From IMG/VR virus record IMGVR_UViG_3300021440_000059, positions 1 to 41,087 of that record: a stretch of 41,087 bases of DNA; one strand, given 5' to 3'. Both the position numbers and the translations under genes were made by a program. The DNA comes from a virus. The notes under the pieces were generated by a model. That model did not search any database. It saw nothing but the letters and a program-made list of their open reading frames with translations, and was not told the DNA's origin. Of the stretch, positions 26,959-41,087 are shown in pieces (the stretch's first letter is position 1; the number at the start of each line of letters is the position of its first letter).

Positions 26959-26961
26959 GTT

Positions 26962-27873
26962 TTAACCCCAAGTAGAAATTTTTACAAGCTCGCCAACAGC
27001 GGCGGCGGATTGAGCCTTCCAGCCCGTAGCCGCCACGCCGCCAACACTGGTCACGGTGGTAGATGCTGCATAAGCCGTCGCAGGCAGACTCAGCGCATAC
27101 GTACCCACACCACCGGTCGCGCCAGAGATTTGTGAAGAGATAACAGCACCTGAAGGAATGCCAGTGCCAGTTACTGATTCGCCCACATCCAAACTGCCAG
27201 ATGCCACCGCAGTGACTGTTAGCTTTGTTCCAAAGCTGGTAGCAGTTGCAGCAGAGATCGTTGTGACCACACTAGTCACATATACGCCAGCGCCGCCAGT
27301 AGTACCGCTAGTTTGCGATACGATGGTGGTGCCTGCGGGGATGCCTGTAGTAGTGCCCAGGGTTTCGCCAGGGGTGATTACTCCGGTCACTGCGGATACG
27401 GTCAGATTAGTGCCAGAGCCTGTGGCTGTGAACGTAGCGCCCATAGAGCCTGTGGCAGTAGCATTGGTGGCTGCTGATTGCGCCGCAGAACCATCGGCAT
27501 AGTTTGCATAAACAGCATCGCCTACAGAGAACGCACCAGCGCCAGCGTTAACCGCCCAGAAGTCGCCTTCGTTATGCAATACTACAGGGAAGCCTACGGG
27601 CACGTTCATTGTGGCTTCGCCAAGGTATTGAGTAATCAAGCCTTGTTGCTCACGATGCACAAACCCGGACGGAGCCTTAGCGGCAGTGCCACGGCTGCGC
27701 ACGGTTACGCCATCGGTATCTACCCATGCGAACTTGCCAACGGTCACGCCGCCAGCTCCAGCCACCAAACCGCCGGGGCCAGCAAGAACTGTGGCCCTGG
27801 GGTTTGCAGATGCAAAATTGCCAGCAACCGCAGGTGCCGGAGTCAGATTGACTTGTGTTTGAAAACCGCTCAT
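26962..27873 (-). CDS. Capsid cement/decoration protein (Gp24-like) with beta repeats
   Basis: 303 residues. The ends form a small decoration protein (GPGGLVAGAGGVTVGKFAWV, then SGFVHREQQGLITQYLGEAT and the final GWKAQSAAAVGELVKIST), resembling structural cement proteins encoded just before capsid genes. Between residues ~145 and 272 two copies of a Gly/Thr-rich repeat are inserted (GIPAGTTIVSQTSGTTGGAG and GIPSGAVISSQISGATGGVG), so the protein is much longer than plain cement proteins. The insert probably projects from the shell. SD TAAAAGGAGTAACC precedes the start. Confidence 0.75.
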   Translation of the reverse strand: MSGFQTQVNLTPAPAVAGNFASANPRATVLAGPGGLVAGAGGVTVGKFAWVDTDGVTVRSRGTAAKAPSGFVHREQQGLITQYLGEATMNVPVGFPVVLHNEGDFWAVNAGAGAFSVGDAVYANYADGSAAQSAATNATATGSMGATFTATGSGTNLTVSAVTGVITPGETLGTTTGIPAGTTIVSQTSGTTGGAGVYVTSVVTTISAATATSFGTKLTVTAVASGSLDVGESVTGTGIPSGAVISSQISGATGGVGTYALSLPATAYAASTTVTSVGGVAATGWKAQSAAAVGELVKISTWG

Positions 27874-27887
27874 TATGGTTACTCCTT

Positions 27888-28586
27888 TTAAGCGTTACGG
27901 AATCGGCCAGCAGCCGGGAATTTTTCAAGCAACCCGCCTGCATCTTGTGCAATTTGAGGGGCTTGTTTGTAAGTTTGTGCGGATGCCACTTTGAAAAGTG
28001 CACGCAAAGCAGGTGCGCCTTGCACATCTTTGCGGTCGATCTTTAGATGATCCAATGCAAAGCCATACACGTCAGCGGCGGAATCCATGCCAATAACATC
28101 GCCCACCACATTGCGCACGTCACGGCGGGCCTCTTCAGCTTCGCGCATCTCTTTGCGCAGGCCGTCCATGGCAGCAGCAACATCTTCTTTTTTCATGCTA
28201 TCGTCCTTTTTCTCAGCGTAATCGGCAGAATCCTCTGCGGGTGCGGCAAACAAAGCGCAGGCTTCTTCAATTACAGAACCATCTACTTTGCCTGCCAGCA
28301 ATTGCCGCAATTTATCAGCGGGCGATGCGTCAGCGGCTGCGGCTTGAGGCGGTTCAATTGCTTTTGGCTCTTGTTCAACATCTAGCAATGCATCAATTAC
28401 ATTGTCTAATTGTTGCGGATTAAGAGTGGCATCCATAGCCAATAACTTGGCCTTGATGTCGCTCTTATTAAAGTTTTTACGGTTAGCGGGGCCTACCAAT
28501 GCAGGCAAAGCGGAATCCGCTGCCAACGCTGGAGAGGCCGCGCTGAGAGCCGCAAAAAGGGCCTTGCCCAGTTTGGTCATCTTCAT
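27888..28586 (-). CDS. Internal in-frame scaffold product (Nu3-like)
   Basis: Codon 190 of the protease gene is an ATG with AAGGA exactly seven bases upstream, an ideal ribosome site within coding sequence. The product (MKMTKLGKALFAALSAASPA...) would be 232 residues and contain only the scaffold part. The arrangement copies lambda C/Nu3. Its hydrophobic-looking start resembles a signal peptide but is more likely a helix of the scaffold. Confidence 0.6.
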   Translation of the reverse strand: MKMTKLGKALFAALSAASPALAADSALPALVGPANRKNFNKSDIKAKLLAMDATLNPQQLDNVIDALLDVEQEPKAIEPPQAAAADASPADKLRQLLAGKVDGSVIEEACALFAAPAEDSADYAEKKDDSMKKEDVAAAMDGLRKEMREAEEARRDVRNVVGDVIGMDSAADVYGFALDHLKIDRKDVQGAPALRALFKVASAQTYKQAPQIAQDAGGLLEKFPAAGRFRNA

Positions 28587-29153
28587 AGCGGATTCCTTGT
28601 AATTAAATGGACTGGAGTCGGACACAATTACATCACTTCCGGCGCGTCCGACTTCCACCAACGCCAGATGATTACCTTCAATTTTAGTCATTTTCCCATC
28701 ATATGCTTGCCCTTCAAATATACCGGGCTCCATAATTGGAACATATCTATAAGCACATGACCATGCTCTAATTTGGTTATTTTCAATTCCAACAATTGAA
28801 TTGCTATCCCACACACAAGTGTCAGCATCCAAATAAGGAAAAACAAATTCTATTTCAGAACCAACAGCACCAATAACCAAATCTGGTCTAGGGGCATCTA
28901 CCGTAACAGGCACATGTTTCGACAAAATGGGCAGTCGCGCAAAGGTAGGTGCGGCTCGCTCAAGCTCTACGGGGTCACGCAGCAACCTATACACTTTATC
29001 TGGCACAAGTCCCAATTCTTGGTAGCCAGGAATTTCTCGCCCGTAATATGGATTTACGGCGGCTTTTGATATGTGAGAACGTTCAATATGAAGACGGCCA
29101 TCCGCATCCACCCGTCGAGCGGATTTATCAAAAGCAAAAAGCAAATCACTCAT
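27888..29153 (-). CDS. Prohead protease (DUF2213-like) fused to scaffold
   Basis: 421 residues. The N-terminal ~185 form the DUF2213 protease-like domain: VYRLLRDPVELERAAPTFAR, LPILSKHVPVTVDAPRPDLV and MTKIEGNHLALVEVGRAGSD, where His and the GRAG turn resemble the prohead-protease active region. The C-terminal half is highly acidic/Ala-rich and helical (DEPLR-type scaffold features, KKEDVAAAMDGLRKEMREAE). An internal start at 28586 would give the scaffold alone. It would shape and then mature the prohead. Confidence 0.8.
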   Translation of the reverse strand: MSDLLFAFDKSARRVDADGRLHIERSHISKAAVNPYYGREIPGYQELGLVPDKVYRLLRDPVELERAAPTFARLPILSKHVPVTVDAPRPDLVIGAVGSEIEFVFPYLDADTCVWDSNSIVGIENNQIRAWSCAYRYVPIMEPGIFEGQAYDGKMTKIEGNHLALVEVGRAGSDVIVSDSSPFNYKESAMKMTKLGKALFAALSAASPALAADSALPALVGPANRKNFNKSDIKAKLLAMDATLNPQQLDNVIDALLDVEQEPKAIEPPQAAAADASPADKLRQLLAGKVDGSVIEEACALFAAPAEDSADYAEKKDDSMKKEDVAAAMDGLRKEMREAEEARRDVRNVVGDVIGMDSAADVYGFALDHLKIDRKDVQGAPALRALFKVASAQTYKQAPQIAQDAGGLLEKFPAAGRFRNA

Positions 29154-29158
29154 TTTAA

Positions 29159-30286
29159 TTAGCCATTATACGGCAATTTATTAACATCATAAAATTGGTA
29201 TCGCCCAGCATTTGATGCCCAAGTCGCCGACGCTACAAAATTTGATTGAGCCGCTATATAACCTAAATGCAACGTTGGCAGCCATTTGTTAAACGTATTA
29301 TATGGCGATGTATCATATATATGTTGCGCTTGAATAGCATTTGCGGCAGAAGTATAACTTATTGCATCAGCAGCCAGGCAAAAAAGCCTTGACGCTGGGA
29401 AATATAGAATCTTGTGAACAACCCATTTGTTTGATGGGATTGGCTGCAAGTCTGCCAATGTCATGGCTGCGTTTGGCTCATATAAAGCCAAATTCGCAGT
29501 TGCTAACGTGCCAGCTTTTCGATCTATAAATTGTCCGCCGTTTGTTATGCCATCGGCTACGCCTCTACCACAAAAATTTATTGAGGCGTTTGCTTGTCCG
29601 CCAGTCACAATTGGATCATCAGATATAAAACATGTATCAAATTGATCGTTGTCTTGATTTCTACCAAGCGTAAGCGCAGAACCATTCGCAAGTCTAAAAA
29701 ATGCACCAGTTACAGGCGGAGAAGTTTCGCCAGTGATTTTATACCCATTAGATTTTATTGACCCAGAATACCACATTTTAGAGCGGTCAAAATCACTAAT
29801 TGCGCCTGGGTTTAATCTAAAAAATGCCACGTTTGCGGGGACTGTTCCATCAATTAGCCCTGTACCAGTATCTCTAGTCAAAATGCCATAAACAGCGCAA
29901 TGCTTAACTTCTATTGGCAAAAATTGAACGTAGGTTGTATTTTCTACAATTTTTAGTTTTTTTGTTGTGTCTTTTGTGGAAAAATCAGGCGTAAAACATA
30001 AATATGTAGCGGCCTGCAATGCCCCACCGGGCCATGCTGGAGTCCAGCCAAGTATTGCATCGAAAGACCAATTATTTTCTACCCTAAGAGTTTCATTATC
30101 TGTATAAACAACTCTTGCTGTAAATGCCATGATGTCAACTTTGTTTGCATCGGCAGGATTCCCGGTTCTATTATTTGATGTGGTTACTAATGGCAATGGA
30201 TAAGAAAATCCGCCACTTGTTTGTGGCGAATCAATGTTAATCAAAGAGGATATATCCGCAGATACTGGCAAAGTAATTGTTGACAT
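29159..30286 (-). CDS. Unknown virion-region protein, 375 aa
   Basis: No family recognised. It begins MSTITLPVSADISSLINIDS and is beta-rich with many Thr, Asn, Gly and aromatic residues (WSFDAILGWTPAWPGGALQA, YLCFTPDFSTKDTTKKLKIV, GAFFRLANGSALTLGRNQDN). No coiled coil, signal or enzyme motif is seen. It overlaps the 129-residue gene by one base and lies between morphogenesis and protease genes, where head fibre or decoration genes often occur. Head-surface protein is the best guess. Confidence 0.65.
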   Translation of the reverse strand: MSTITLPVSADISSLINIDSPQTSGGFSYPLPLVTTSNNRTGNPADANKVDIMAFTARVVYTDNETLRVENNWSFDAILGWTPAWPGGALQAATYLCFTPDFSTKDTTKKLKIVENTTYVQFLPIEVKHCAVYGILTRDTGTGLIDGTVPANVAFFRLNPGAISDFDRSKMWYSGSIKSNGYKITGETSPPVTGAFFRLANGSALTLGRNQDNDQFDTCFISDDPIVTGGQANASINFCGRGVADGITNGGQFIDRKAGTLATANLALYEPNAAMTLADLQPIPSNKWVVHKILYFPASRLFCLAADAISYTSAANAIQAQHIYDTSPYNTFNKWLPTLHLGYIAAQSNFVASATWASNAGRYQFYDVNKLPYNG

Positions 30287-30675
30287 TATTCAACTACCGC
30301 TATCAATAATTCAGTCCCAGTGGCAACATATTGTATGGCGGCCAAAGTATCATTACTTGGCGCTACAAAGTTAATAATTTCTCCTGGTTTTAATACAGTA
30401 TTTGCAGATGTAATAGTGGCGTTTGCAGTTCCTGAGTTTGCAAAGCTTACGCTTTTTTTGCCAGCAGAAATTTGGCTTGCATCGGTTTTTCTAAATGCGC
30501 TTGCCAATCTTTGAGTTGTTGCAATTGAAGTTGCTACGGGTGATGCGCGTAGCTGCAAATCAGTTAAACCAAGGCTATCACTTTGGTTTCCAAAAGCATT
30601 TGTTCCATTATTATCCAGAACAACAATTCCTTGCGCAACAGCATTGTTGTTTAATAAAACTTCTGTCCCTGACAT
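30286..30675 (-). CDS. Unknown virion-region protein, 129 aa
   Basis: 129 residues starting MSGTEVLLNNNAVAQGIVVL, followed by TSIATTQRLASAFRKTDASQ and a beta-rich C-terminus (GEIINFVAPSNDTLAAIQYV). No family recognised. Translation is linked to the 375-residue gene by a one-base stop/start overlap, suggesting partner proteins such as a head fibre and its capsid anchor. Confidence 0.6.
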   Translation of the reverse strand: MSGTEVLLNNNAVAQGIVVLDNNGTNAFGNQSDSLGLTDLQLRASPVATSIATTQRLASAFRKTDASQISAGKKSVSFANSGTANATITSANTVLKPGEIINFVAPSNDTLAAIQYVATGTELLIAVVE

Positions 30676-30684
30676 TTTTTACCT

Positions 30685-31530
30685 TTATATTGGCAATACT
30701 GGACGACTTGTACAACGGCAATTTATCTCTTCACCTGGCTGTATAAACTTACCAGATATTTTACATCCTTCGGCTATTTTATACTTTTTTCCATTTGCCG
30801 CAACATGATCCGGCCTTGGATTTTTGCCAGCGTGCGAGTGCAACCATATTGCTTCGGTTATTCCAAGTTCCAATTGTCTGGCACGGGTAACTACCGCATT
30901 GGCTTTGTTTGATTGATCTCTGGCTATCAATACTGCGCGGTTCCCAATAGCCGAGTACAACTCCTGTATATCTTTTACCATTGTTTGAAGGTCGCGGCCT
31001 GCGCTGTATGAACGCATAACAATGCCTTGAATTTCTTGAAAATACTTTCGTGGAATGGTTTTTATAAGCCACACATTTTCCTCAAGCGATGCTGTAAAAG
31101 CATCACGCACGGTCTGGGTCATTTTGAAATCCACCGCCCACCCGGCATCTTTTAGCGCTTTATTAAAAGAATTGTCGCTAGCCTTAAACATGCTTTTCAA
31201 ATAAGCATCAGCAATTACTGGGGCCGACTCCTCGAATTTATCAATCCAGCGCTTTGCCAGATTGTCTAGTATTTTCTTGATTTTGGCGGCAGGGCTGTAT
31301 GCGCTTGCATATCCTTGCAAAAACTTTGCGTTTTCTCCTGGAATTGCAGCATCCTGCGCCTGCTCTACCAATCCGGCCATGCGTGGCGGATATTTACGAT
31401 AGCCCGCAGTTAGCCAATACTCGATTGAACCATGCATTTCTGCAATCATGCGTTGGAGGGCTTTTCGATATTTTGCCTCAATTCCACGATTTGTGGCCAC
31501 ATTGCGCAATACAACTTCACGCTTTTTCAT
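30685..31530 (-). CDS. Head morphogenesis protein (SPP1 gp7/Mu gpF-like)
   Basis: 281 residues. A helical N-terminal half ends in the gp7/F-like domain: IGNRAVLIARDQSNKANAVV, ARQLELGITEAIWLHSHAGK, RPDHVAANGKKYKIAEGCKI and the closing PGEEINCRCTSRPVLPI. The C-terminal R-x-D-H...C-R-C pattern is the conserved core of this minor head protein family, which is packaged with the portal and affects DNA ejection. Located right after the portal as usual. Confidence 0.9.
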   Translation of the reverse strand: MKKREVVLRNVATNRGIEAKYRKALQRMIAEMHGSIEYWLTAGYRKYPPRMAGLVEQAQDAAIPGENAKFLQGYASAYSPAAKIKKILDNLAKRWIDKFEESAPVIADAYLKSMFKASDNSFNKALKDAGWAVDFKMTQTVRDAFTASLEENVWLIKTIPRKYFQEIQGIVMRSYSAGRDLQTMVKDIQELYSAIGNRAVLIARDQSNKANAVVTRARQLELGITEAIWLHSHAGKNPRPDHVAANGKKYKIAEGCKISGKFIQPGEEINCRCTSRPVLPI

Positions 31531-31841
31531 GGCACTTTATCACTATCATTCCAATCAATGTTTTTGCAAGTTTTTTTATTATTTTGGGAAATAATTTTTG
31601 ATAGTTTATGTTTTTTAACCATTTCAACTATTTTAATTGGTGCCTCACAAGGCTCAACAGCTCTTATATCAAGCCATACTTCGCCACTGACTTTTACTTT
31701 TTGATTAACAATTGATAATGCTTTTATTTTTGAAAATTTATACACTTTATCATCAAAAGCATATTTAATCCAATCATTTTTAGACAAGGTTCTATCTATT
31801 AAAACACCGCATTGAGCAATTTTAAAAGAAATACTATTCAT
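31527..31841 (-). CDS. Hypothetical protein between portal and morphogenesis genes, 104 aa
   Basis: AT-rich gene of a style unlike its virion neighbours, so probably a later insertion (moron-like). The product starts MNSISFKIAQCGVLIDRTLS and includes a beta segment (ALSIVNQKVKVSGEVWLDIR) and a Lys-rich C-terminus. No family recognised. It overlaps the next ATG by four bases. Confidence 0.65.
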   Translation of the reverse strand: MNSISFKIAQCGVLIDRTLSKNDWIKYAFDDKVYKFSKIKALSIVNQKVKVSGEVWLDIRAVEPCEAPIKIVEMVKKHKLSKIISQNNKKTCKNIDWNDSDKVP

Positions 31842-31853
31842 TGTTTTATTTTT

Positions 31854-33626
31854 TTAGTTAATGTCTTTACTTACAAACTCTTTGCCGACTTCTTTTGGAA
31901 TACCAAGCGTAGATTCACCATGTGCCGCCGCTTCCATGGCTTTATGTTGCGCTTCGCTAACGCTTTTATCATGAGCTTGTTTTGGTTCAAAATCTGGGTT
32001 TTTAATAGACTCCATTAGATCATTTAAATTTAATTCCGTCCAATCTTCAAGAACATATTCACGATCCCAGCGTCCAGTTAAACCAGATCCGAATTGCCCA
32101 TTTTCAGCGCGTGGATGATCTTCTTCTCTAAACTCCGCATCCATGGCAGAAATACTTTCCTCATCAACAGTCTCATTAGGAGGCACTATTTCAATATCCG
32201 TATCAAGCCCGTTGTATCCGCTATCTGGTGACTTTGCCAGCTTATCGCGCACTTCGGATGGGTCAATCACCCCAGCCGCTATATATGCGCAGTCCGTTGC
32301 CCCATCAGTCTGGCGAATTTCTGCCAATTCTTTCGGTGTCATTTGGTAAAGCGGTACAAAATCAAACCCAATATCAGGGTCTATTTCACCAAACAAAGAT
32401 AGCTGCACCACCTTCATAATGGTTTCTATGGGCTCACGCCAGAAGGCTTCTTGCTGCGCTGCGATCCAGTCGTAAAAGACCCTTATCTCGCCCTCGCTGG
32501 AAGCGTTTAAGCCGCTTGGTGATATGCCAGTGAGAACAACTGCGGGGGTGCGGCTCACTGAACACATGTGTTCCTGTGACTGAGCTTGCAATTCATGCAG
32601 CCCAGATAGCGGCGTATTTACCTGTACCAATTCCTCACGCTCTTTGTCTAAAAGCATAAGCCCGCGATTACTGCGGGTTGCTGTAAACAAATCAGCACGG
32701 GCGAACAGATCAGTTCCATCATCATTGCCCTGAAGCACTTGATCCATAGCCGTTGATAAAACAGTGATTGAAAAATTGTTTATCAAGTCGGCTACACTTT
32801 GCCGTGTGCGCAACCAATTATCAACATATGGCTCTGCCAATTGAGACAGCGACATTCCTGCAAAGTTAAAAGCAGGTTTTAATATGTCTGGCAATTGCCT
32901 TGTAGCCACAGTCATAAGCCTAGAAGAATGCACTTGCTGCCCAAGCATGAACCACCCATGAGGCTTGTAAAAGTCTGGTGCCGCCGGGTCTAGGGCGTTG
33001 TAACCACTTGGTGTAGTCCAAACTGCCTCGACGGTTGAAACACTGTTTAAGCTGCCTTTTTTTACAGTGCGCGGGTCAAGGATAAGCGGGGTTTTTCTGT
33101 CGCCATTTTGAATGTCCAGGAATATCTGCCCACGCCCAAAATAGCAATCATGTTCTACGGCGCGTTGAATTACCCCGCGAATGTTTAACCGCTTGAATTC
33201 TTCTTCAATCTGTTTGATTTTTTCTGCGGTGTCGCCCGCGTCATCTTGCTTGCTTGTAAATTTGATCCACTCGCGGGTAACTTCTGTGGACAATGTAGAT
33301 GCGAATGCGCGATATTCAGCCCGAGTAGCAAGCTGCGCAAGATATTGAAACCCCGGGAATCCACCGCCCGGATATGCCTCTGACGCAAACGTATAAGGGT
33401 TGTAGTCCATCGCCAAAACCGGAGCAGACGCTCCAACAGGCACAACCCCCGGAGCCAATTTAGGCGGCTGTATTGGATACGAATACGGCTTCATATTGCC
33501 ACTATCAGCAGCAATTGAACGCGCACGAATAGCGGCAATTCTTAGCCCCTCGCCTTTAATGGTGTTTGGTTTTTCGGGCACTTGGGTTTTACGGGGGCGA
33601 CCTACGGGGCGTTTGATTTTGTCCAT
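31854..33626 (-). CDS. Portal protein (DUF1073-like)
   Basis: 590 residues. A basic N-terminus (RPVGRPRKTQVPEKP) leads into the DUF1073 portal core: GFPGFQYLAQLATRAEYRAF, EHDCYFGRGQIFLDIQNGDR, ALDPAAPDFYKPHGWFMLGQ and RTPAVVLTGISPSGLNASSE. The C-terminus carries the EEDHPRAENGQFGSG motif often seen attached to phage head proteins. It forms the dodecameric DNA entry ring. No ribosome site precedes the ATG; an AT-rich TAAAAT lies six bases upstream, so a separate promoter is possible. Confidence 0.85.
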   Translation of the reverse strand: MDKIKRPVGRPRKTQVPEKPNTIKGEGLRIAAIRARSIAADSGNMKPYSYPIQPPKLAPGVVPVGASAPVLAMDYNPYTFASEAYPGGGFPGFQYLAQLATRAEYRAFASTLSTEVTREWIKFTSKQDDAGDTAEKIKQIEEEFKRLNIRGVIQRAVEHDCYFGRGQIFLDIQNGDRKTPLILDPRTVKKGSLNSVSTVEAVWTTPSGYNALDPAAPDFYKPHGWFMLGQQVHSSRLMTVATRQLPDILKPAFNFAGMSLSQLAEPYVDNWLRTRQSVADLINNFSITVLSTAMDQVLQGNDDGTDLFARADLFTATRSNRGLMLLDKEREELVQVNTPLSGLHELQAQSQEHMCSVSRTPAVVLTGISPSGLNASSEGEIRVFYDWIAAQQEAFWREPIETIMKVVQLSLFGEIDPDIGFDFVPLYQMTPKELAEIRQTDGATDCAYIAAGVIDPSEVRDKLAKSPDSGYNGLDTDIEIVPPNETVDEESISAMDAEFREEDHPRAENGQFGSGLTGRWDREYVLEDWTELNLNDLMESIKNPDFEPKQAHDKSVSEAQHKAMEAAAHGESTLGIPKEVGKEFVSKDIN

Positions 33627-33666
33627 TTTTGTATTTTACACAAAATTAAATAATTATTTTGCGAAA

Positions 33667-35109
33667 TTATTTTCGCATGGCCTTGTCTAGCACGCCTTGA
33701 GATATTTTTAATTTATTGAATATCGGGTACAGCCTGCGCAAAGCCTGCGTAAGCGCATCCACCTGATCATCGTTAGCCGCAGCCGGGAAGGCGGTTAGTT
33801 CTGAAACTAAATCCTTCACCCATGGAGAAAGCTCAGGATGAGGTAGCCACACATTGCCAGCTTCCCAATACGATGTAATGGCGTGAGCGCGGGCCAGTTT
33901 AGAGCCATCCGGCTCAATTGGGATAATTCCCGGCACGCTTGATTTTAAGGTGTCAATCACCGCAGGGCCGTTAGCTTTGTCTTCAATCAATATCTCGCGA
34001 GTCTTGGGCCATGCATTACGCATATCGACCACTGCCTTGATTGTTTTTGTAAAACGCATTCGCTCACGGACTTGGGCTAGTAAGTATGAGTTCGCACCGG
34101 ACTTGCCCCACACTTGCCCCACTACAAAGTCTGTGCCGTCAGTATCTTTGAATGTGCAATCCCATGATGCCACCACTTTATCAAATTTAGCAGGCAGGTC
34201 TTTTGGCAGATAATAGCGCAGGCCACTTTCCTTGAATACGTTGCCTCCCAATGATTTCGGGGACTGCTGAAACATGGCAGACCACCAGTAATCTGATAGT
34301 TCCGCCTTAAACTCCATCAATTGCGACAATGGGTGCAGCTCTGGTATTAAAGGCCCGCGCGGCAATTCTGGGTTGTATCCAGTTTCTCCCGGTTCATTTA
34401 TGGCCGGGAATCTAAGTATTGTTAGGCGTGGATCGCCTTTATGTAATGATGCAATTCTTGCAGGTAAATCATCTTCTGACCAGCTTGTCGCCATAATAAT
34501 CTGCCCAGAATTGGCAGACATGCGAGTCTTACTTGTGGACTGATACCAATTCCAATGACTTTCTTTTATTGTTGAGCTTAATGCCTCTTGTGCGTTTTTT
34601 ATTGGGTCATCAATAATAAAACAATCAGCAGCTTTGCCAGTAAAACCGCCGCCCACACCGTCCCCAATATAACTGCCAGCGCCGTTTGGAGAAGAGAATT
34701 CGCCGTTGCGGTCTATTTTGTATTTGCTTTTTACATCCGGCGCTGGAAATAGCCTTAAATGCTCCGGAGATATTAAATTCCTGCGCACGTCCAAAGACAT
34801 AGAATCCGCCAAAGTTGCAGAATAGCTGGCAGCAGCGATGCGCCAATCAGGGAATCTGCCAAGTAAATAAGCTGGCAATTTACGGCTAACAATCTCGCTT
34901 TTCCCATGCTGAGGTGGGGCTTGCAAAATCAGCACCGGGCGTATGCCGGACTGCATATCCAAGATGAATTTGTCTAAAGCTGCGCAAACGGCATTAGAAA
35001 AGCCAGAGCGCACATAGCATTTGGTGGTGTATCTAATGTACTCAGCAAGGTTTGTGCGCGCAGCCCTGCGGCGCAATAACTCTGCCGCCGCCTCTTTTTT
35101 GCCAATCAT
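33667..35109 (-). CDS. terL: Terminase large subunit
   Basis: 480 residues. Walker A-like PPQHGKSE (residues 65-72) and Walker B CFIIDDPIK (163-171) form the packaging ATPase, followed by IIMATSWSEDDLPARI (coupling region). The C-terminal nuclease has SWDCTFKDTDGTDFVVGQVW with the first acidic residue, EILIEDKANGPAVIDTLK, and a final NDDQVDALTQAL, giving the RNase H-like acidic set. It cuts and pumps DNA into proheads. It starts two bases after the small subunit. Confidence 0.95.
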   Translation of the reverse strand: MIGKKEAAAELLRRRAARTNLAEYIRYTTKCYVRSGFSNAVCAALDKFILDMQSGIRPVLILQAPPQHGKSEIVSRKLPAYLLGRFPDWRIAAASYSATLADSMSLDVRRNLISPEHLRLFPAPDVKSKYKIDRNGEFSSPNGAGSYIGDGVGGGFTGKAADCFIIDDPIKNAQEALSSTIKESHWNWYQSTSKTRMSANSGQIIMATSWSEDDLPARIASLHKGDPRLTILRFPAINEPGETGYNPELPRGPLIPELHPLSQLMEFKAELSDYWWSAMFQQSPKSLGGNVFKESGLRYYLPKDLPAKFDKVVASWDCTFKDTDGTDFVVGQVWGKSGANSYLLAQVRERMRFTKTIKAVVDMRNAWPKTREILIEDKANGPAVIDTLKSSVPGIIPIEPDGSKLARAHAITSYWEAGNVWLPHPELSPWVKDLVSELTAFPAAANDDQVDALTQALRRLYPIFNKLKISQGVLDKAMRK

Positions 35110-35111
35110 TC

Positions 35112-35831
35112 TTAATCCTGCTCGTCCACCTTAAGAATAGCCGCCAATTGGTCATCAGTAAGATCGTCCGCCGTAATGTGAGACATTGACACAGGGCCCC
35201 CGTTGGGGCCGCTGATCTCTTTTTTCTCGACCAGCATGCCAATATATTTGGCGATGTTAAGCAAGGCAGAATCCTGGTCTCTGGTAAGTATTTTTATACC
35301 GTCCTTTGTTTTTTGCACGCCAGCATACAACCTGCGGGCCGCGCCCTTAAGTTTGCGCGTATCCTCAAAATGCACAAGTTCCTGCCCTAATCCACCGCAT
35401 TCTGGGCAATCTGGGTTTATTTCTGCGTTTACATCAAACCCCATGCCACCACTTGAATCCGGCGGTTCTTTGCCCAGCTCTATGCATTTATTTTGAACCG
35501 CCAAAAATTCTGCCTCAGTCCATTGGTAAGCATGCCCTATTCCATAGCAATGGCGGCAGCACCCACGGCGCAATTGCATCAAATCATTAGCATCAGCCGT
35601 GGCAATTTGTTTCCATTGCTTTAGCACCCAGGCCGCATCAATCTCGGCCAAAGTTGCTATTTTTTCCTTGTATTCGTCAATTGCTGCCTGTATTTCATGT
35701 TTTTTTAGTTGTTCATGCCCAATTTGACCCGCAGCTTTTTCCGAAAAACCTGCGCGGATTGCCGCTTGTGTTGCATTGAAGTCTTTGCAGTATTCCTGCA
35801 CAAATAATTGTTGTTTATGGTTTAAGCTCAT
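35112..35831 (-). CDS. terS: Terminase small subunit with DnaJ-type zinc motif
   Basis: 239 residues. The N-terminal HTH domain (FVQEYCKDFNATQAAIRAGF, then SEKAAGQIGHEQLKKHEIQA) is the usual small-terminase DNA-recognition part. An insertion at 91-150 holds two CxxCxGxG-like motifs, CRHCYGIG and CPECGGLG, as in DnaJ zinc centres. A helical C-terminus with DQDSALLNIAKYIGMLVEKK follows. The ATG has no ribosome site and lies five bases after TAGAAT, suggesting leaderless translation. Confidence 0.85.
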   Translation of the reverse strand: MSLNHKQQLFVQEYCKDFNATQAAIRAGFSEKAAGQIGHEQLKKHEIQAAIDEYKEKIATLAEIDAAWVLKQWKQIATADANDLMQLRRGCCRHCYGIGHAYQWTEAEFLAVQNKCIELGKEPPDSSGGMGFDVNAEINPDCPECGGLGQELVHFEDTRKLKGAARRLYAGVQKTKDGIKILTRDQDSALLNIAKYIGMLVEKKEISGPNGGPVSMSHITADDLTDDQLAAILKVDEQD

Positions 35832-35836
35832 AATTT

Positions 35837-35860
35837 ATTCTATCATTTTTCTAGTGAAAT
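35837..35860 (-). promoter_or_regulatory. Candidate late promoter before terminase (leaderless)
   Basis: The minus-strand sequence CTAGAAAAATGATAGAATA differs in only two positions from CTAGAAATATGTTAGAATA in the leftward early promoter. The -10 TAGAAT (35842-35837) is five bases from the terS ATG. No good -35 is found at 16-17 nt, so an activator is probably needed. Confidence 0.6.
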
Positions 35861-35884
35861 TTTACAACTTATGGGTTTGACATT

Positions 35885-36271
35885 TTACATTCCATTACAA
35901 AAACAAGCTGCTGCGCCGTTTTTGCTGTGGCAAAAGTTACTTGGGTCGGTTTCAAGCCACTCCCAAAAATTAGGGTCATTGCACCACATCGCTGCCAGCC
36001 TTGCTAGTGCACCGCCTTTTGGCTTTTCATGTTTAATTTCTAGCGTTTTATGTACACGTTCTACTGATGTGTTTAGATTCTCGCTGTTTTTAGACAGATA
36101 GCCATTGGATAGCGCAGCAATTGCAGCCGGTGTGCCTGGCGCTGCAAACAGCTTAAATGCGTCTTGTGCGTGCACGGGCTCTATGTCTATCGATAGTCTC
36201 AAAGTTCCATCAGCCATGGTGCGCATGCTTACGCTTGAGCAGGGTATGGCCGTCATATCAGCGACGGCCAC
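35885..36271 (-). CDS. Conserved phage hypothetical protein, 128 aa
   Basis: 128 residues (SVSMRTMADGTLRLSIDIEP, DAFKLFAAPGTPAAIAALSN, GALARLAAMWCNDPNFWEWL). I recognise the RTMADGTLRL...AQDAF pattern from small proteins of many phages of Proteobacteria; no biochemical role is established. It overlaps the upstream 98-residue gene by 19 nt. Located between the replication genes and terminase. Confidence 0.75.
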   Translation of the reverse strand: MAVADMTAIPCSSVSMRTMADGTLRLSIDIEPVHAQDAFKLFAAPGTPAAIAALSNGYLSKNSENLNTSVERVHKTLEIKHEKPKGGALARLAAMWCNDPNFWEWLETDPSNFCHSKNGAAACFCNGM

Positions 36272-36549
36272 TTTATCTTGTCAATACGACCCCGCCAATA
36301 TTTATTCGAATGCCCCCAAAAGGCCTGCGCTTCTTTAATGAGCCGCTTAAGCCGCTCATCTAGCTGATGGGGAGGCACACCACGGGCAGACTCGCTGGCG
36401 CGGAAAATGACCACGCTTGCGTCGTCAGTCTCCAGATCGGCGAAGCCATCGCCATCCCGCACCAGCACTTTGAGTCCGCTGGTGTGGGCTAGGTGGCCGC
36501 TCGCATCGAACGACCACGATTTGTGCCAATTGAAATGCTTATTTGTCAT
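36253..36549 (-). CDS. Hypothetical protein, 98 aa
   Basis: The product starts MTNKHFNWHKSWSFDASGHL, has an internal acidic part (DGDGFADLETDDASVVIF) and a basic Trp-rich C-terminus. No family recognised. It shares its first base with the last base of the preceding gene and overlaps the next gene, typical for operonic small genes. Confidence 0.65.
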   Translation of the reverse strand: MTNKHFNWHKSWSFDASGHLAHTSGLKVLVRDGDGFADLETDDASVVIFRASESARGVPPHQLDERLKRLIKEAQAFWGHSNKYWRGRIDKIKWPSLI

Positions 36550-36785
36550 TACTTATTGATAATGACACCAAAGTACACACAGTCCAATTCTTTGTCTTGA
36601 ATAGTGTATCCAAGTCCCCAGCATGGCTTCATGCTCCTAGACTGCGCCGAGGTAATTGGCTGTGCATCTTGGTGCTTTGCCAAATAGCCAACGCGATCAG
36701 CCTTTGTGTAGAACTTTACGACGTGGGTTTCTGTGCCAAATGCTGGATTGATATCTTTGGCTTGAATGCGTGCTGCGTAGAACAT
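36549..36785 (-). CDS. Hypothetical protein, 78 aa
   Basis: The start ATG at 36785 (MFYAARIQAKDINPAFGTET) has AAGGA seven to eight bases upstream; the longer frame to 36860 runs through leader hairpins and is discounted. Beta-rich, with conserved-looking SMKPCWGLGYTIQDKEL. First gene after a sigma70-type promoter (36856-36883). No family recognised. Confidence 0.7.
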   Translation of the reverse strand: MFYAARIQAKDINPAFGTETHVVKFYTKADRVGYLAKHQDAQPITSAQSRSMKPCWGLGYTIQDKELDCVYFGVIINK

Positions 36786-36805
36786 TTTGATTTCCTTGGA
36801 AGGAG

Positions 36806-36846
36806 CCACCTGCCGGGTGGTGTCGGCGGACTGCTTTGCGCAGTCC
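36806..36846 (-). promoter_or_regulatory. Leader hairpins upstream of the 78-aa gene
   Basis: A 7-bp hairpin GGACTGC-N5-GCAGTCC (36828-36846) begins almost at the predicted 5' end (about 36849) and a 5-bp hairpin CCACC-N5-GGTGG (36806-36820) follows before the ribosome site. A 5'-terminal hairpin usually stabilises mRNA; translational control is possible. Confidence 0.5.
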
Positions 36847-36855
36847 ATGGAAGTG

Positions 36856-36883
36856 ATCATACTACACTTTTAAGACCTTGCAA
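36856..36883 (-). promoter_or_regulatory. Sigma70-type promoter, leftward
   Basis: On the minus strand TTGCAA (36883-36878), a 16-nt spacer and TATGAT (36861-36856) fit a host promoter. It lies in the 143-nt gap upstream of the 78-residue gene and would start transcription near 36849, towards the terminase and virion genes. Confidence 0.6.
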
Positions 36884-36928
36884 GGATTTTTTGAAAATAT
36901 TTTTAAATGGCAGCTTCGCCACTCACCG

Positions 36929-37180
36929 TCACAGCAAGTCCATCTGCGAAGCCTTGGATGCTTGCCTTGAAGCACACCTCTTTGCCCTTCCATTGCGCGC
37001 CAAAACATCGGCCCGAACCAATGGTGTTCCGGGCTCTTCAAACGCGATTAAATAGCTGTATCCGTTGTAATTTATGCCGCCGTAATGTCGTGCTACGCCC
37101 ATTTGGGTGTGTTGCCATTCGTATATGCGCTCTGGAGCAGCGTTCCCATCGGTCAGGTTATTTCTTTGTTGTAAGCTCAT
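36929..37180 (-). CDS. Hypothetical protein, 83 aa
   Basis: The ATG at 37180 (MSLQQRNNLTDGNAAPERIY) has GGAG six bases upstream. The protein is polar with an internal GGINYNGYSYLIAFEEPG beta region and a basic tail. No family recognised. It overlaps the resolvase gene by 23 nt and probably ends the replication transcript before the next promoter. Confidence 0.65.
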   Translation of the reverse strand: MSLQQRNNLTDGNAAPERIYEWQHTQMGVARHYGGINYNGYSYLIAFEEPGTPLVRADVLARNGRAKRCASRQASKASQMDLL

Positions 37181-37577
37181 AAGATACTCCACTAATAATT
37201 TCAACTCCTAAAGCGGCCAATAGCCCGCCTTCTTGTGGGCCTTGTACCCAGTCCACCAGAATTGGCCTAAATCGGCTGTCGTCTATTCCAAGCGCTTGTG
37301 CCATTCCATCAATCATTGCTTTACTAGCTGCCAGCATATTGTCCGCATCACGTTTGCGTTTGTCAGGCGTAAGGTAAACAAGAGACAAAGGTATATCTCC
37401 TACAGGCCATTCTTTTTTCTTTTGAGTTATCTCAAAATCTTTGCGAAAGGCTGCGGCAGTAATGACAAATGCTTCTGATCTTTGTTTTTGCTTTGCCCTC
37501 AAAGTGGCGCTCCAATGTTTTCCGTTTTTCCTATTTGGAAATAGCTCATGCGCTGGAAAAGGCAATTTAATTATCAT
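37158..37577 (-). CDS. rusA: RusA-like Holliday junction resolvase
   Basis: 139 residues. FPAHELFPNRKNGKHWSATL at the start and LTPDKRKRDADNMLAASKAM followed by IDGMAQALGIDDSRF are the RusA signature; the acidic residues D77, D79 and D99/D100 correspond to the metal-binding set and the neighbouring Lys/Arg to DNA contacts. It cuts four-way junctions and branched DNA, which would clear replication or packaging concatemers. It overlaps the upstream ABA-sandwich gene by four bases. Confidence 0.9.
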   Translation of the reverse strand: MIIKLPFPAHELFPNRKNGKHWSATLRAKQKQRSEAFVITAAAFRKDFEITQKKKEWPVGDIPLSLVYLTPDKRKRDADNMLAASKAMIDGMAQALGIDDSRFRPILVDWVQGPQEGGLLAALGVEIISGVSYELTTKK

Positions 37578-37900
37578 TTCATTCTCTTTCCTATTTCAGC
37601 GGCTGCGCAAACTATTGCGCGTCGAGTTGCTGCCAATGCGTCATCTTTTTGTTTTTCCCACCAAAAACCATTTTCAGAATAAATATGTATTTCTTTTAAG
37701 CGATGATTTATTCTTACATCTAAACCAACTTTTACAGCCAGCATTAGCGCATCTCCATTGTCTTCAAGTGGATTCCATGTTTCATGATCCCCGTTTTCTT
37801 CCCCGTCAATTGTAAAAAATACGTCAAGCTCAAAGTTACCCCCGGCGGCTTTAGCTGCAAACTTTAACAATTCTTTGTTTTTGGCAACACAATTTGTCAT
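37574..37900 (-). CDS. Phage ABA-sandwich-like protein, 108 aa
   Basis: 108 residues; ETWNPLEDNGDALMLAVKVG and DALAATRRAIVCAAAEIGKR are typical for the phage ABA-sandwich domain family, small alpha-beta-alpha proteins of unknown role common in early operons. GGAG lies six bases before the ATG. Sits between a zinc-binding protein and the resolvase. Confidence 0.8.
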   Translation of the reverse strand: MTNCVAKNKELLKFAAKAAGGNFELDVFFTIDGEENGDHETWNPLEDNGDALMLAVKVGLDVRINHRLKEIHIYSENGFWWEKQKDDALAATRRAIVCAAAEIGKRMK

Positions 37901-37934
37901 TTAATACTCCGTAAAACATGAACTTCAGACCAAC

Positions 37935-38243
37935 TCAGCGGCGTTTCTGCCGGATCGGGGGCTCGGACTCCGTAGATTGCACCGGGCCAATTGCCATTGG
38001 CCCTTTCACCAATCTGCGTATCTCCGCCTCGCTGTGCCCGTAGTCCATCCAAACTTTCAACATTGCTGCGCGCCTGGTGCTGCACTCCGATTTGGATATT
38101 GGCAGTCGGGCCAATTGCTGAATAATCCTTGCCCCGCAATAAATGCAAGCCGGGCAAAATAGTGCGTAATTCGGGACTTCCAATGATATTTGACATTCTT
38201 TGCACACCTTCAGTTGATTGTTCTGTTTCAGTTGATAAAACAT
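37935..38243 (-). CDS. Cys-rich, probably zinc-binding protein, 102 aa
   Basis: 102 residues with CKECQIS (15-18 region), then FCPACIYCGARIIQQLARLP: the Cys pairs could bind one or two zinc ions. A helical part with WMDYGHSEAEIRRLVKGPMA follows, similar to phage proteins found next to replication initiators. The alternative overlapping frame (37897-38205) lacks these features. DNA or protein adaptor function is likely but unproven. Confidence 0.7.
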   Translation of the reverse strand: MFYQLKQNNQLKVCKECQISLEVPNYALFCPACIYCGARIIQQLARLPISKSECSTRRAAMLKVWMDYGHSEAEIRRLVKGPMAIGPVQSTESEPPIRQKRR

Positions 38244-38264: not shown

Positions 38265-38717
38265 TTACTCTCCACGAATACTAGCCATCGCCATCTGCAC
38301 AACTGTTGGGCTTATCTTTTCCCCAGCCTTGACTCGCTGAATAATCCTTTGCGCCCAGTCCCTGCCATTCGATTTTTGCACAGTCGATGCCCTCAGATCG
38401 GATAACTTCGCAAGCTCTGCCTTCACCCTTGCTGGGTCTGCCTTGGGCCCTGGCAATGCTGGGGTCTCCGCCGACGGGGCCAGCCTGCATATGGCCTTAA
38501 AAGCAACCACATTTGGCGGCTTCTCTGGTAAATTTGCCAAAGCAAACGCAATCGCATGCGGCGCATTTTCAAATGCAGAAAGCTCGTTCATCCAATCCGA
38601 CTTTACGGCGTTTATTGCAGTCGAATCAAACCCCCGCCACCGGCTCAAGAACTCAGCCCCATAAGTCACGGATAGCTTCTCCCAAATTCGATCAACCCAA
38701 GCCAATGGCAACGACAT
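38265..38717 (-). CDS. Replication-region protein, 150 aa
   Basis: 150 residues: PLAWVDRIWEKLSVTYGAEF, LSRWRGFDSTAINAVKSDWM, ENAPHAIAFALANLPEKPPN, then a Pro-rich linker and a helical C-terminus (RDWAQRIIQRVKAGEKISPT). The pattern is common in Burkholderiales phages immediately behind a DUF1376-type initiator. By position it could be a helicase loader analogous to lambda P, but no AAA+ motif is present. Confidence 0.7.
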   Translation of the reverse strand: MSLPLAWVDRIWEKLSVTYGAEFLSRWRGFDSTAINAVKSDWMNELSAFENAPHAIAFALANLPEKPPNVVAFKAICRLAPSAETPALPGPKADPARVKAELAKLSDLRASTVQKSNGRDWAQRIIQRVKAGEKISPTVVQMAMASIRGE

Positions 38718-39501
38718 TGCTTACCTCTGCTTCAAAAGTTTCTGCGGCAATTACACTGCTCCTAGCCGCCAGCCTTGGCACCGCAGCCTCCATGCGCTCA
38801 CGCTCCTCTCTTCGCCAAGATGGCTCGCTATCGCGAGAATGGTTGCCTGCTACCCATTCAGCCTTAAACCCGGCCCAGCCCCTCGCACAGCACTCCCTAA
38901 GCGCGTCCTCAATCGACCACCCGGCCTTTGATGCCTCCCGGCGTATTCCATCAATCGCGGATGGCGTGATGGGTGATTTTTTTGCTTTTCGTAAAGTCTT
39001 GAAATCTTGCCAGACAGAATGCGATACGCCGTCAGGCGGCGCGATAGAGCTTGTATTATTTATTGGTTTATGGTTATTGGTTCTTGGTTCTTGGTTAGTT
39101 GGAGTGCCGTTGCTCGCACGTTCAACGTCTGTTCCAACGTCCGTTGAACGTGCGTTGAGCGCTTGTTGAATTTTGTGGGCTTTTGCAGCCGCAGAAGCCT
39201 TGCCAGCCATGGCTTTTTGCGAATTATTTGATCGGTATCTTTCAATCTCCTCTTCGCAGCGTGCGTGATACCACCCTGTAGGTGTTTTTGTAAAAAACTC
39301 GTTCAACGTCTGTTCAACGGCCGTTGACTCTTCGTTGGTGCGGGCGATTATGCGGCGGCATATCCATTGGGTATCCAACGGTAGCTGCTGCTCTGTGTCG
39401 TAGTAAAGATCGATCAAATCACGATATATGCTGCGCTCAATGCGCGTCAAATGCCTTGTGGCTTTATCGAAATCTCCGATGTGATGCGGGTAATGCTTCA
39501 A
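38692..39501 (-). CDS. DUF1376-type replication initiator (YdaU-like)
   Basis: 269 residues. The first ~90 (YPHHIGDFDKATRHLTRIER, SIYRDLIDLYYDTEQQLPLD, FFTKTPTGWYHARCEEEIER) form the DUF1376 winged-helix-like domain of phage replication proteins; a polar linker and a second helical domain (SHSVWQDFKTLRKAKKSPIT, WSIEDALRECCARGWAGFKA) follow. The start is a TTG at 39501 matching the family N-terminus. It overlaps a four-codon ORF (ATG at 39512, MGKS) whose TGA shares bases with the TTG. Iteron-like repeats lie within the gene, as in lambda O. Confidence 0.8.
   Translation of the reverse strand: MKHYPHHIGDFDKATRHLTRIERSIYRDLIDLYYDTEQQLPLDTQWICRRIIARTNEESTAVEQTLNEFFTKTPTGWYHARCEEEIERYRSNNSQKAMAGKASAAAKAHKIQQALNARSTDVGTDVERASNGTPTNQEPRTNNHKPINNTSSIAPPDGVSHSVWQDFKTLRKAKKSPITPSAIDGIRREASKAGWSIEDALRECCARGWAGFKAEWVAGNHSRDSEPSWRREERERMEAAVPRLAARSSVIAAETFEAEVSNVVAIGLG
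39045..39330. other. Candidate replication origin: iteron-like repeats plus AT-rich tract
   Basis: GTTCAACGTCTGTTC occurs at about 39119-39133 and again at 39301-39315, each followed by AACG and a CCGTTGA motif, with further inverted CGTTGA/TCAACG units between 39119 and 39160. An AT-rich tract with repeated TTGGTT units (39045-39102) lies beside them. Repeats plus an unwinding tract inside the initiator gene mirror the lambda O origin. Confidence 0.5.
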
Positions 39502-39512
39502 GATTTGCCCAT

Positions 39513-39617
39513 AAAAAAAGGCTTCACCTGCACACTCTTCCTTTCGGAAGTTGGTCGAACGGGGCAGTCCCGCCAGTGTGCATGTGAAACCCTACCACCA
39601 AACCCCGACCAAGGGGT
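39513..39617 (-). terminator. Leader RNA element L1 (attenuator-like) before the replication initiator
   Basis: The minus-strand RNA starts with hairpin ACCCC-TTGGTC-GGGGT (39617-39602). A 17-bp stem with one mismatch and one G-U (39591-39575 with 39536-39520) follows, ending in T7 (39519-39513). The 38-nt terminator loop contains hairpin TTCC-GAAA-GGAA (39549-39538) and CGACCAA (39557-39551), complementary to the TTGGTCG of the first hairpin. It lies directly upstream of the TTG start, so it may set how much RNA reaches the replication genes. Confidence 0.7.
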
Positions 39618-39624
39618 CTAAAAC

Positions 39625-39630
39625 ATTATA
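39625..39630 (-). promoter_or_regulatory. -10 box (TATAAT) for L1/replication transcript
   Basis: A perfect minus-strand TATAAT lies just upstream of L1, putting the start near 39618 so that the RNA would begin with the GACCCC hairpin. The -35 region (TGGCAG at 18 nt or GGCAGT at 17 nt) is weak. Confidence 0.5.
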
Positions 39631-39633
39631 CCT

Positions 39634-39915
39634 TCATTCGCCGTGGTACTGCCACAAAACAGCATTGCACAAATTGTGAACAGCACCTATAGTTAACCCG
39701 GTTTTCCTGCAATGGTGCAAATGAACAGGCCAACTAAAAAAACTACTAGGGAACAAAGTTTTATTTATTTTTTTTTCTTGTATATGCTTTGCGGAATCAC
39801 CTGTCAATGGAGCATTGCAGTGACAACACAAACCACCTTGGATATAAACGTACTGCTCACGCGCCTGCCTGCGAACAGTCCAGTGAGCATCATCGTATCT
39901 GATGGGTAGTTCCAT
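39634..39915 (-). CDS. HNH-like nuclease, 93 aa
   Basis: The ATG at 39915 (MELPIRYDDAHWTVRRQARE) has GGAG six bases upstream. CCHCNAPL supplies a Cys pair, and FSWPVHLHHCRKTGLTIGAV, HNLCNAVLWQYHGE provide the HLHH and HNxCN parts of a small HNH/endonuclease-like family known from phages. It could nick DNA in replication or recombination. One metal or catalytic His position (LHHCRKTG) differs from the more usual H-D/H-N patterns I expect, so activity is not certain. Confidence 0.7.
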   Translation of the reverse strand: MELPIRYDDAHWTVRRQAREQYVYIQGGLCCHCNAPLTGDSAKHIQEKKINKTLFPSSFFSWPVHLHHCRKTGLTIGAVHNLCNAVLWQYHGE

Positions 39916-40046
39916 TTTTTTCTCCAAAAAAAGCCCAGGTCGAGACCCTCACTCTTCAGTGTTGGCGGGCTGGTAGGCACCAGCAGATTCTCGGCCTGGG
40001 CTTGCCTAAAATCCCCCGCCAAGGGGTCAAAAAACCAAACACTCAT
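39804..40046 (-). CDS. Possible leader ORF through RNA element L2, 80 aa
   Basis: An ATG at 40046 has AAAGGA about nine bases upstream and opens a frame (MSVWFFDPLAGDFRQAQAEN) that runs through the whole L2 stem-loop and into the HNH gene in another frame. The second half is clearly a shadow of that gene. It could act as a leader peptide whose translation melts L2, or be fortuitous. Confidence 0.3.
   Translation of the reverse strand: MSVWFFDPLAGDFRQAQAENLLVPTSPPTLKSEGLDLGFFWRKKWNYPSDTMMLTGLFAGRRVSSTFISKVVCVVTAMLH
39926..40026 (-). terminator. Leader RNA element L2 (attenuator-like) before the HNH gene
   Basis: Same plan as L1. Hairpin CCCC-TTGGC-GGGG (40026-40014) is followed by a 15-bp stem with one mismatch (40003-39989 with 39945-39931). 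The run of seven T (39932-39926) comes next, and the GGAG of the HNH gene follows at once. The terminator loop holds hairpins CTGGT-N4-ACCAG (39983-39970) and CACT-N4-AGTG (39961-39950), and CCCGCCAA (39969-39962), complementary to TTGGCGGG in the first hairpin. Confidence 0.7.
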
Positions 40047-40122
40047 ATCAAATTTTCCTTTACCCGTGGCTTTACTTTAGGCTAAAATAATTGAGCCATG
40101 TGCCACTGCCTGCACGATTTTT

Positions 40123-40455: not shown

Positions 40456-40695
40456 TTATAATTTATACCCAAATAATTTTTTGTACTTCTCAATTATGGG
40501 GCATTTTGCATTACGAAAACGCCTGCCCATAGCCCTCTCCTTGTTTATTATGTAAATTGCTTCATGCACACGAGCTGCAATTCGCGGCGACAAATCGTCC
40601 GGCCATTTTGAAACTGCGGAGTTGGTAATCCACATGGCTTCGGCTGCTCTTGTAACAGTTCCGCCCAAAAGACTGATTGCTTCGGATTTTTTCAT
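40456..40695 (-). CDS. Cro-like transcriptional regulator
   Basis: 79 residues: MKKSEAISLLGGTVTRAAEA, then MWITNSAVSKWPDDLSPRIA. This is the Cro-type HTH, with recognition helix TNSAVSKW and the usual Trp-Pro turn, followed by a basic tail (AMGRRFRNAK). The ATG overlaps the stop of the heptad-repeat gene (ATGA), tying their translation. It probably represses early promoters once replication begins. With the HTH at 1379-1618 there are two small regulators on the same strand. Confidence 0.85.
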   Translation of the reverse strand: MKKSEAISLLGGTVTRAAEAMWITNSAVSKWPDDLSPRIAARVHEAIYIINKERAMGRRFRNAKCPIIEKYKKLFGYKL

Positions 40696-41087
40696 AGTTT
40701 AATCAATTCTTCAATACTTACGCCTTTTTTTCTTTCTTCTAATGTGATCTCGCAATCATCTATATTGCCACTGAGGCCATACACGTCTCCACGGATGTCA
40801 GACACGTACCCACGGATGCCAGACACGTCTCCACGGATGTCAGACACGTCTCCACGGATGCCAGACACGTCTCCACGGATGCCAGACACGTCTCCACGGA
40901 TGCCAAACACGTCTCCACGGATGCCAGACACGTCTCCACGGATGCCAAACACGTCTCCATGGATGCCAGACACGTCTCCACGGATGTCAGACACGTACCC
41001 ACGGATGCCAAACACGTCTCCATGGATGTCAGACACGTACCCACGGATGCCAGACACGTACCCACGGATGTCAGACACGTCTCCACG
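40692..41087 (-). CDS. Heptad-repeat phage protein, C-terminal part (joins 1-433)
   Basis: The frame enters open from the window edge and has about fifteen heptads (IRGDVSG, IRGYVSD, IHGDVFG variants), ending with LSGNIDDCEITLEERKKGVS and IEELIKL. The closing D-D-C-E-I-T...E-R-K-x-G-V-x-I tail is the recognisable cap of this phage repeat family. There is no ATG of its own with a ribosome site; the true N-terminus is at 433. Variation between units is mostly D/Y, S/F and G/D at fixed positions, so the fold is kept while exposed residues change. Confidence 0.85.
   Translation of the reverse strand, partial: RGDVSDIRGYVSGIRGYVSDIHGDVFGIRGYVSDIRGDVSGIHGDVFGIRGDVSGIRGDVFGIRGDVSGIRGDVSGIRGDVSDIRGDVSGIRGYVSDIRGDVYGLSGNIDDCEITLEERKKGVSIEELIKL
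40769..41087. repeat. 21-nt tandem repeat array, right part
   Basis: Fifteen units of the same 21-nt repeat as at 11-350; the last 126 bases (40962-41087) duplicate 11-136 exactly. The array is coding on the minus strand. Units differ by a few substitutions and not by insertions, preserving the frame. Confidence 0.95.

Follow-up and report, generated by a model that had tools for sequence, protein, structure and literature searches.

Two similar elements, here called L1 and L2, lie directly before genes on the minus strand of a virus record of 41,087 bases (IMG/VR record IMGVR_UViG_3300021440_000059; this whole stretch is referred to below as the window). Do they encode RNAs that control these genes and, if so, by what means? 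A sequence-only reading of the window had described them as paired elements with a covarying loop-loop interaction and a terminator-like end, and had proposed a switch between termination and read-through.

Organization of the Locus

L1 and L2 were found where that reading had located them. The order along the minus strand is cro-like gene, 97-aa ORF, L2, 92-aa ORF, L1, and DUF1376 replication gene, and the principal features are as follows:

40456-40695, minus: gene for a Cro-like regulator, farther upstream within this operon (P22_Cro, 7.3e-5, below the Pfam cut-off; phrog_409, 1.9e-6)
40028 to 39926, minus: L2 element (from sequence)
39634-39912, minus: 92-aa ORF directly after L2 (phrog_14729, unknown function)
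39618 to 39513, minus: L1 element (from sequence)
38692-39501, minus: DUF1376 replication (primosomal/O-like) gene with a TTG start, just after L1 (Pfam, 8.8e-31; PHROGs, primosomal protein and O-like)

The genes following L1 and L2 had been taken for a replication initiator and an HNH nuclease. The DUF1376 match bears out the former, but the endonuclease VII/HNH likeness of the 92-aa protein is weak (E 0.017, below the cut-off). The sole exact copies of GACCCCTTGG within the window are those that form the 5' starts of L1 and L2. With pseudoknots left out of the calculation, the predicted folds of L1 and L2 were, respectively, 3.5 and 2.75 SD better than those of dinucleotide shuffles.

L1 and L2 Belong to a Family of Structured RNAs

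Clear relatives came from regions upstream of DUF1376 homologues, where unlike sequences share the same layout. Further members were collected by a descriptor search and by a scan with the motif GGCGG...CCGTTCGRCCAAC, found in these relatives. A covariance model (R1) was built from an alignment of 49 sequences (A1), to which L1 and L2 themselves belonged; against this model L1 scored 111.4 bits and L2 77.8 bits, both as members of the training alignment, and full-length members scored 54-115 bits. After scans with further loop types, the collection comprised 182 distinct members on 179 loci. Most scanned contigs carried one copy and a few carried two, as in the window. Nearly all members came from environmental phage contigs (IMG/VR), with two in Burkholderiales MAGs. 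Bacterial genomes gave two exact-pattern matches, and two of 399 genomes of that bacterial order were positive, both already known, so that statistics on hosts are thin.

The common 5' start noted in the sequence-only reading fared less well as a family feature: GACCCCTTGG does open both elements, but conservation across the family is limited to the TTGG with which the loop begins and does not extend to GACCCC. Used as a family signature in a viral scan, GACCCCTTGG returned mostly coincidences, L009 being the one true relative among the stretches read, and a looser version of the pattern was equally noisy. Both were rejected.

Rfam 15 covariance models gave no match in the window at the gathering threshold. 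Within 39480-40080 they gave chance matches only, with E values of 0.59 or weaker; weak matches to mir-345 and CRISPR-DR10 were rejected as chance. The relatives L241, L242, L260, L267, L009 and L251 were likewise without Rfam match. BLAST of the element against INPHARED phages and PLSDB plasmids returned chance matches only, and searches of the open-licence literature yielded no description of a pseudoknot-leader family. As judged from these comparisons, L1 and L2 are members of a structured RNA family that is absent from Rfam and apparently uncatalogued. Because at least 180 versions occur in other environmental phages, we take the family to be real and widely distributed, with a probable role in gene control. 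Known structured RNAs are thereby joined by a widespread family, seemingly missing from both Rfam and the searched open literature, at the place where phages commit to replication.

A few variants (L341:4832-4944, L346, L347 and L395) lack the TTGG hairpin loop and have more than 20 T after the stem; these may be either decayed copies or assembly artefacts.

Covariation Supports a Fold with Two Pseudoknots

The element is about 105 nt long and consists of a 5' hairpin (P1), a stem (P2) carrying two hairpins (P3 and P4) in a three-way junction, and two pseudoknots. In PK1, the P1 loop pairs with the strand between P3 and P4; in PK2, which the sequence-only reading had missed, the linker between P1 and P2 pairs with the P3 loop. 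P2 has 18 bp with no insertions or deletions and, as a rule, a single mismatch at a distance of 7-8 bp from the junction. In L1 the parts are:

39625-39630, minus: -10 box TATAAT (sequence; across the family, -10 boxes peak at 10-12 nt ahead of the P1 loop)
near 39618-39621, minus: predicted transcription start, at the 5' end of P1 (position of the -10 box)
39601-39618, minus: hairpin P1, core GACCCC/GGGGTT (folding)
39607-39612, minus: PK1 5' strand TTGGTC, the P1 loop (exact complement of GACCAA)
39594-39598, minus: PK2 5' strand GTGGT, in the P1-P2 linker (PK2 covariation)
39575-39593, minus: P2 5' strand (folding and alignment)
39558-39574, minus: hairpin P3, whose loop holds the PK2 3' strand (alignment)
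39564-39568, minus: PK2 3' strand ACTGC, in the P3 loop (PK2 covariation)
39551-39556, minus: PK1 3' strand GACCAA (alignment and loop pairing test)
39537-39550, minus: hairpin P4 with a GAAA loop (folding)
39519-39536, minus: P2 3' strand (sequence and folding)
39513-39519, minus: U7 tract, an intrinsic-terminator-like end; P2 3' strand and U7 together span 39513-39536 (sequence)

The corresponding parts of L2 are:

40013-40026, minus: hairpin P1 (folding)
40017-40022, minus: PK1 5' strand TTGGCG, the P1 loop (exact complement of CGCCAA)
40003-40008, minus: PK2 5' strand TAGGCA (complementarity to the P3 loop)
39985-40003, minus: P2 5' strand (alignment)
39970-39983, minus: hairpin P3 (folding)
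39974-39979, minus: PK2 3' strand TGCCTA, in the P3 loop (complementarity to TAGGCA)
39962-39967, minus: PK1 3' strand CGCCAA (complementarity)
39950-39961, minus: hairpin P4 (complementarity)
39931-39949, minus: P2 3' strand (sequence)
39926-39932, minus: U7 tract; P2 3' strand and U7 together span 39926-39949 (sequence)

The fold was assessed by the way in which paired positions change together. In A1, 97.0% of pair cells held standard pairs, compared with 73.6% in shuffled and 38-44% in slid controls, and 34 of the 43 pairs showed double-sided changes. The covariation score was 0.623, as against 0.182 (shuffled) and 0.07-0.10 (slid), so that the covariation in homologues on which the sequence-only reading had staked its proposal is indeed present. 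Automatic helix parsing left four TG-type members unparsed and mis-registered a few P2 junctions.

PK1 is the loop-loop pairing that had been noticed to covary between the two copies; it is exact in both (TTGGTC/GACCAA in L1, TTGGCG/CGCCAA in L2) and generalises to the 182 members. Because the descriptor used for A1 itself required PK1 complementarity, separate tests were needed. Among motif-scan matches, for which the P1 loop had been left unspecified, A at the variable motif position R went with TTGGTC in 38/38 (A opposite U) and G with TTGGCC in 17/17 (G opposite C), these counts covering loops with T or C at the tested position, with none discordant; three other matches had TTGG followed by G or A in the loop. 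When the loop was specified instead, R1 matched at 112 of 120 loci among the matches listed for the matched combination CG/CG, at 28 of 69 (one truncated) for the matched combination UG/CA, at 4 of 19 (two distinct sequences) for the U-G wobble, and at none of 22 for the C-A mismatch control. The TTGG/CCAA core looks invariant, although the searches and the model used TTGG/CCAA themselves. PK2 had never been used in selecting members, and at least five complementary bases were present in 96% of them, compared with 40% when linkers were dealt to other members. In L1 PK2 is weak (-1.9 kcal/mol; GTGGT/ACTGC includes two G-U pairs) and in L2 it is stronger (-7.1 kcal/mol). Conserved unpaired bases were almost absent, the main ones being G57, U79 and C80.

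The fold of P1 to P4 with PK1 and PK2 is shown by covariation. The structured RNA family is genuine, and its mechanism is sharply testable. Covariation also bears on the idea that the conserved feature is one of DNA, such as an origin cruciform or a protein-binding palindrome: although the element often adjoins replication genes, only a single-stranded nucleic acid such as RNA would account for covarying pseudoknots and G-U pairs, and promoter placement, U-tract and orientation are all strand-specific, so that we give this idea practically no credence.

Transcription Signals and Downstream Genes

In 181 upstream regions, -10 hexamers occurred 42, 74 and 25 times at 10, 11 and 12 nt before the P1 loop, with single digits at most other distances; the commonest spacing of the box from the outermost P1 pair was 6 nt. 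The match to a -35 box was scarcely above control (3.05 versus 2.48 of 6). Transcripts would probably start at P1, as predicted from the placement of the promoter box. L1 has TATAAT at this place; upstream of P1 in L2 a -10 box was looked for and none was found, and L2 is probably read from the cro transcript.

At the other end, both L1 and L2 show the layout of an intrinsic terminator, i.e., a GC-containing stem (the base of P2) followed by U7, in agreement with the T7 runs originally described. Of 129 members, 128 had a U-run of at least four, commonly six to nine. Placement immediately ahead of genes also proved general: in 155 of 175 cases a same-strand start codon lay 7-16 nt after the U-run, the usual distance being 8-15 nt. 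The proteins encoded there fall into at least 28 unrelated clusters, the largest being DUF1376-like replication proteins (59/125), and others including HNH/GIY-YIG-like nucleases, ParB-like and Rha-like proteins. On the upstream side, Cro/YdaS-like proteins are among the neighbours, with ERF recombinases divergent.

An HNH- or GIY-YIG-like nuclease is a frequent first gene after the element (39634-39912 after L2 in the window; also L357, L337, L407, L427 and L448). That the nuclease-like gene in the window has its own promoter-less copy, L2, suggests hitch-hiking on the leader, and, as the element recurs ahead of nuclease genes, it may be a portable expression module exploited by mobile genes. 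In L380, L396, L397, L404 and L352 the first ORF after the element is a conserved one of 36-39 aa (e.g., MNGYEKYEEMKREWVKANPDASNAEYQNAMRRIAAKCGV), for which there was no Pfam match.

A Proposed Promoter-Proximal Attenuator Leader

Between the U-tract and the next gene there is no room for a promoter, so that expression of the gene would require polymerase to run past the U-tract. Because downstream genes need read-through, we take the element to be a promoter-proximal attenuator leader, with regulated or partial read-through as the simplest reading. In L1, the promoter with its -10 box about 6 nt upstream would start the transcript at P1, a step that the sequence strongly supports. The RNA then takes up the fold made of P1, P3, P4, the 18-bp P2, PK1 and PK2, and the outer half of P2, running into the U-tract, is shaped like an intrinsic terminator. 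The element would gate the early replication-region genes through the balance that it sets between termination and read-through. Candidates for what shifts this balance are a phage protein, a host factor and the state of RNA polymerase. A switch of this general kind, as first proposed, appears to be the best reading of L1 and L2. The explanation as a whole, in which L1 and L2 represent a new family of leader RNAs that act in cis as attenuators in tailed phages, we consider on balance probable. The tight spacing to the next gene could, however, reflect genome compaction alone.

How might read-through be decided? The 5' strand of PK2 directly adjoins that of P2. When the helices were modelled as rigid A-form, with PK2 stacking on P3, no placement of full PK2 together with full P2 was found that avoided clashes; clash-free placements appeared with two basal P2 pairs open and were common at three to four. 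This geometry is coarse and ignores tertiary flexibility, and the modelling suggests that PK2 opposes the outermost P2 pairs next to the U-tract. Because PK2 would form before the 3' arm of P2 and would be sterically at odds with those pairs, it may act as a brake on completion of the terminator. In L1, P2a is more stable than PK2 (-12.2 versus -1.9 kcal/mol), so that kinetics or some assistance would be needed for PK2 to prevail. The invariant length of P2 also fits coexistence of PK2 and a nearly full P2. Possibly, though we hold this only tentatively, the terminator is gated by its own pseudoknots, with PK1 and PK2, formed before the terminator stem closes, deciding read-through into the replication genes; neither a leader peptide nor a dedicated protein would then be needed. 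If this were true, phages would have two RNA-only ways of controlling early transcription, this one and the put RNA of phage HK022, the two being unrelated in structure. Two covarying pseudoknots with a built-in terminator-like end make RNA-only control of early transcription testable on short templates.

Comparison with Known Systems

A known element to compare by function is put of phage HK022, which the sequence-only reading had already mentioned while remarking that the sequences were not alike. It is described as an RNA of about 70 nt with two stem-loops and a minor-groove triplex, which binds the beta' zinc-binding domain, needs no dedicated phage protein and has its pause 21 nt past stem II (PMC9378689). 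Through this domain of RNA polymerase, put suppresses distant terminators. Like putL and putR, the L1/L2 family comprises cis-located structured RNAs of phage early operons with a proposed effect on termination, present in one or two copies per phage. Unlike put, its members have four helices, two pseudoknots, about 105 nt, a U-tract adjoining the stem and a predicted start at P1. When HK022 26000-38000 was searched with R1 with filters off, the region being scanned whole since putL and putR are unannotated in the record, the best score was 11.4 bits (E 0.18). Unlikeness of sequence is thus upheld; put appears closest in idea, the likeness being functional only, with a differing architecture.

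By analogy with put, the RNA might stay on RNA polymerase as a self-acting antiterminator, with the U-tract as a loading pause, so that later terminators of the early operon are ignored. The site after cro-like and before replication genes (L421, L466 and the window) is in general that of early-operon antiterminators, the number of copies per contig (one or two) is as for put in HK022 (PMC9378689), nearly all loops are locked in tertiary pairing, and the fixed-length P2 could position the core against polymerase. However, the stem adjoins the U-tract directly, as in a terminator, whereas stem II of put lies 21 nt upstream of the pause; R1 has no match in the HK022 early region; and no convincing compact sense-strand terminators were seen downstream in the window, where the candidates are poor and mostly intragenic. 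We consider this explanation unlikely.

A comparably low probability attaches to a stand-alone small RNA gene with its own promoter and terminator, whose product acts in trans, e.g., by binding a host protein, with leaky read-through accounting for expression of the next gene. The -10 box, the compact fold of about 105 nt and the terminator-like end would suit such a gene, and the analogous int-alpA RNA is typed as an sRNA in Rfam. Against this, the close-set start codons make the next gene's expression depend on read-through, the P1 and P3 loops are engaged in pseudoknots and leave little free seed, and L2 lacks a promoter box.

A complex fold fused to a terminator-like end, ahead of genes, might also recall a metabolite riboswitch, in which ligand binding sets termination versus read-through. 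A ligand pocket would need conserved unpaired bases, of which there are almost none, and the downstream genes are for phage replication, nucleases and regulators rather than a metabolic pathway; a riboswitch is therefore very improbable. With riboswitch and attenuator leaders in general, the attenuator leader that we favour shares a structured leader RNA that has a terminator at its end and precedes coding sequence. It differs in that the terminator stem is the central helix of the fold itself, and we noticed neither an alternative antiterminator hairpin nor a leader peptide that could be recognised.

In phage lambda, nutR-tR1 occupies the interval from cro to the replication genes, close to a terminator, and nut needs N protein and boxA/boxB. 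The L1/L2 family resembles it by position only and is unrelated in structure. The int-alpA RNA (RF02996) is likewise a phage RNA that has a U-tract and takes this position ahead of DUF1376 genes. Unlike the L1/L2 family, it has 71 positions, other helices and a conserved GAAAAG core, and the RF02996 model matched neither L1 nor L2, even at E 10, nor the tested relatives.

Two further observations were made in passing. A tandem 21-nt repeat (CACGTCTCCACGGATGCCAGA-like) occupies 40760-41087 of the window, inside an ORF that runs off its end. RF02996 itself matched L276:4908-4977 (plus strand) and, more weakly, L293:4909-4975 and L280:1728-1794, directly before DUF1376 genes of related phages; with a loose regular expression, int-alpA-like motifs were found before 36 of 80 DUF1376 loci, and at several of the int-alpA-like loci the hairpin loop has its complement beyond the U-tract.
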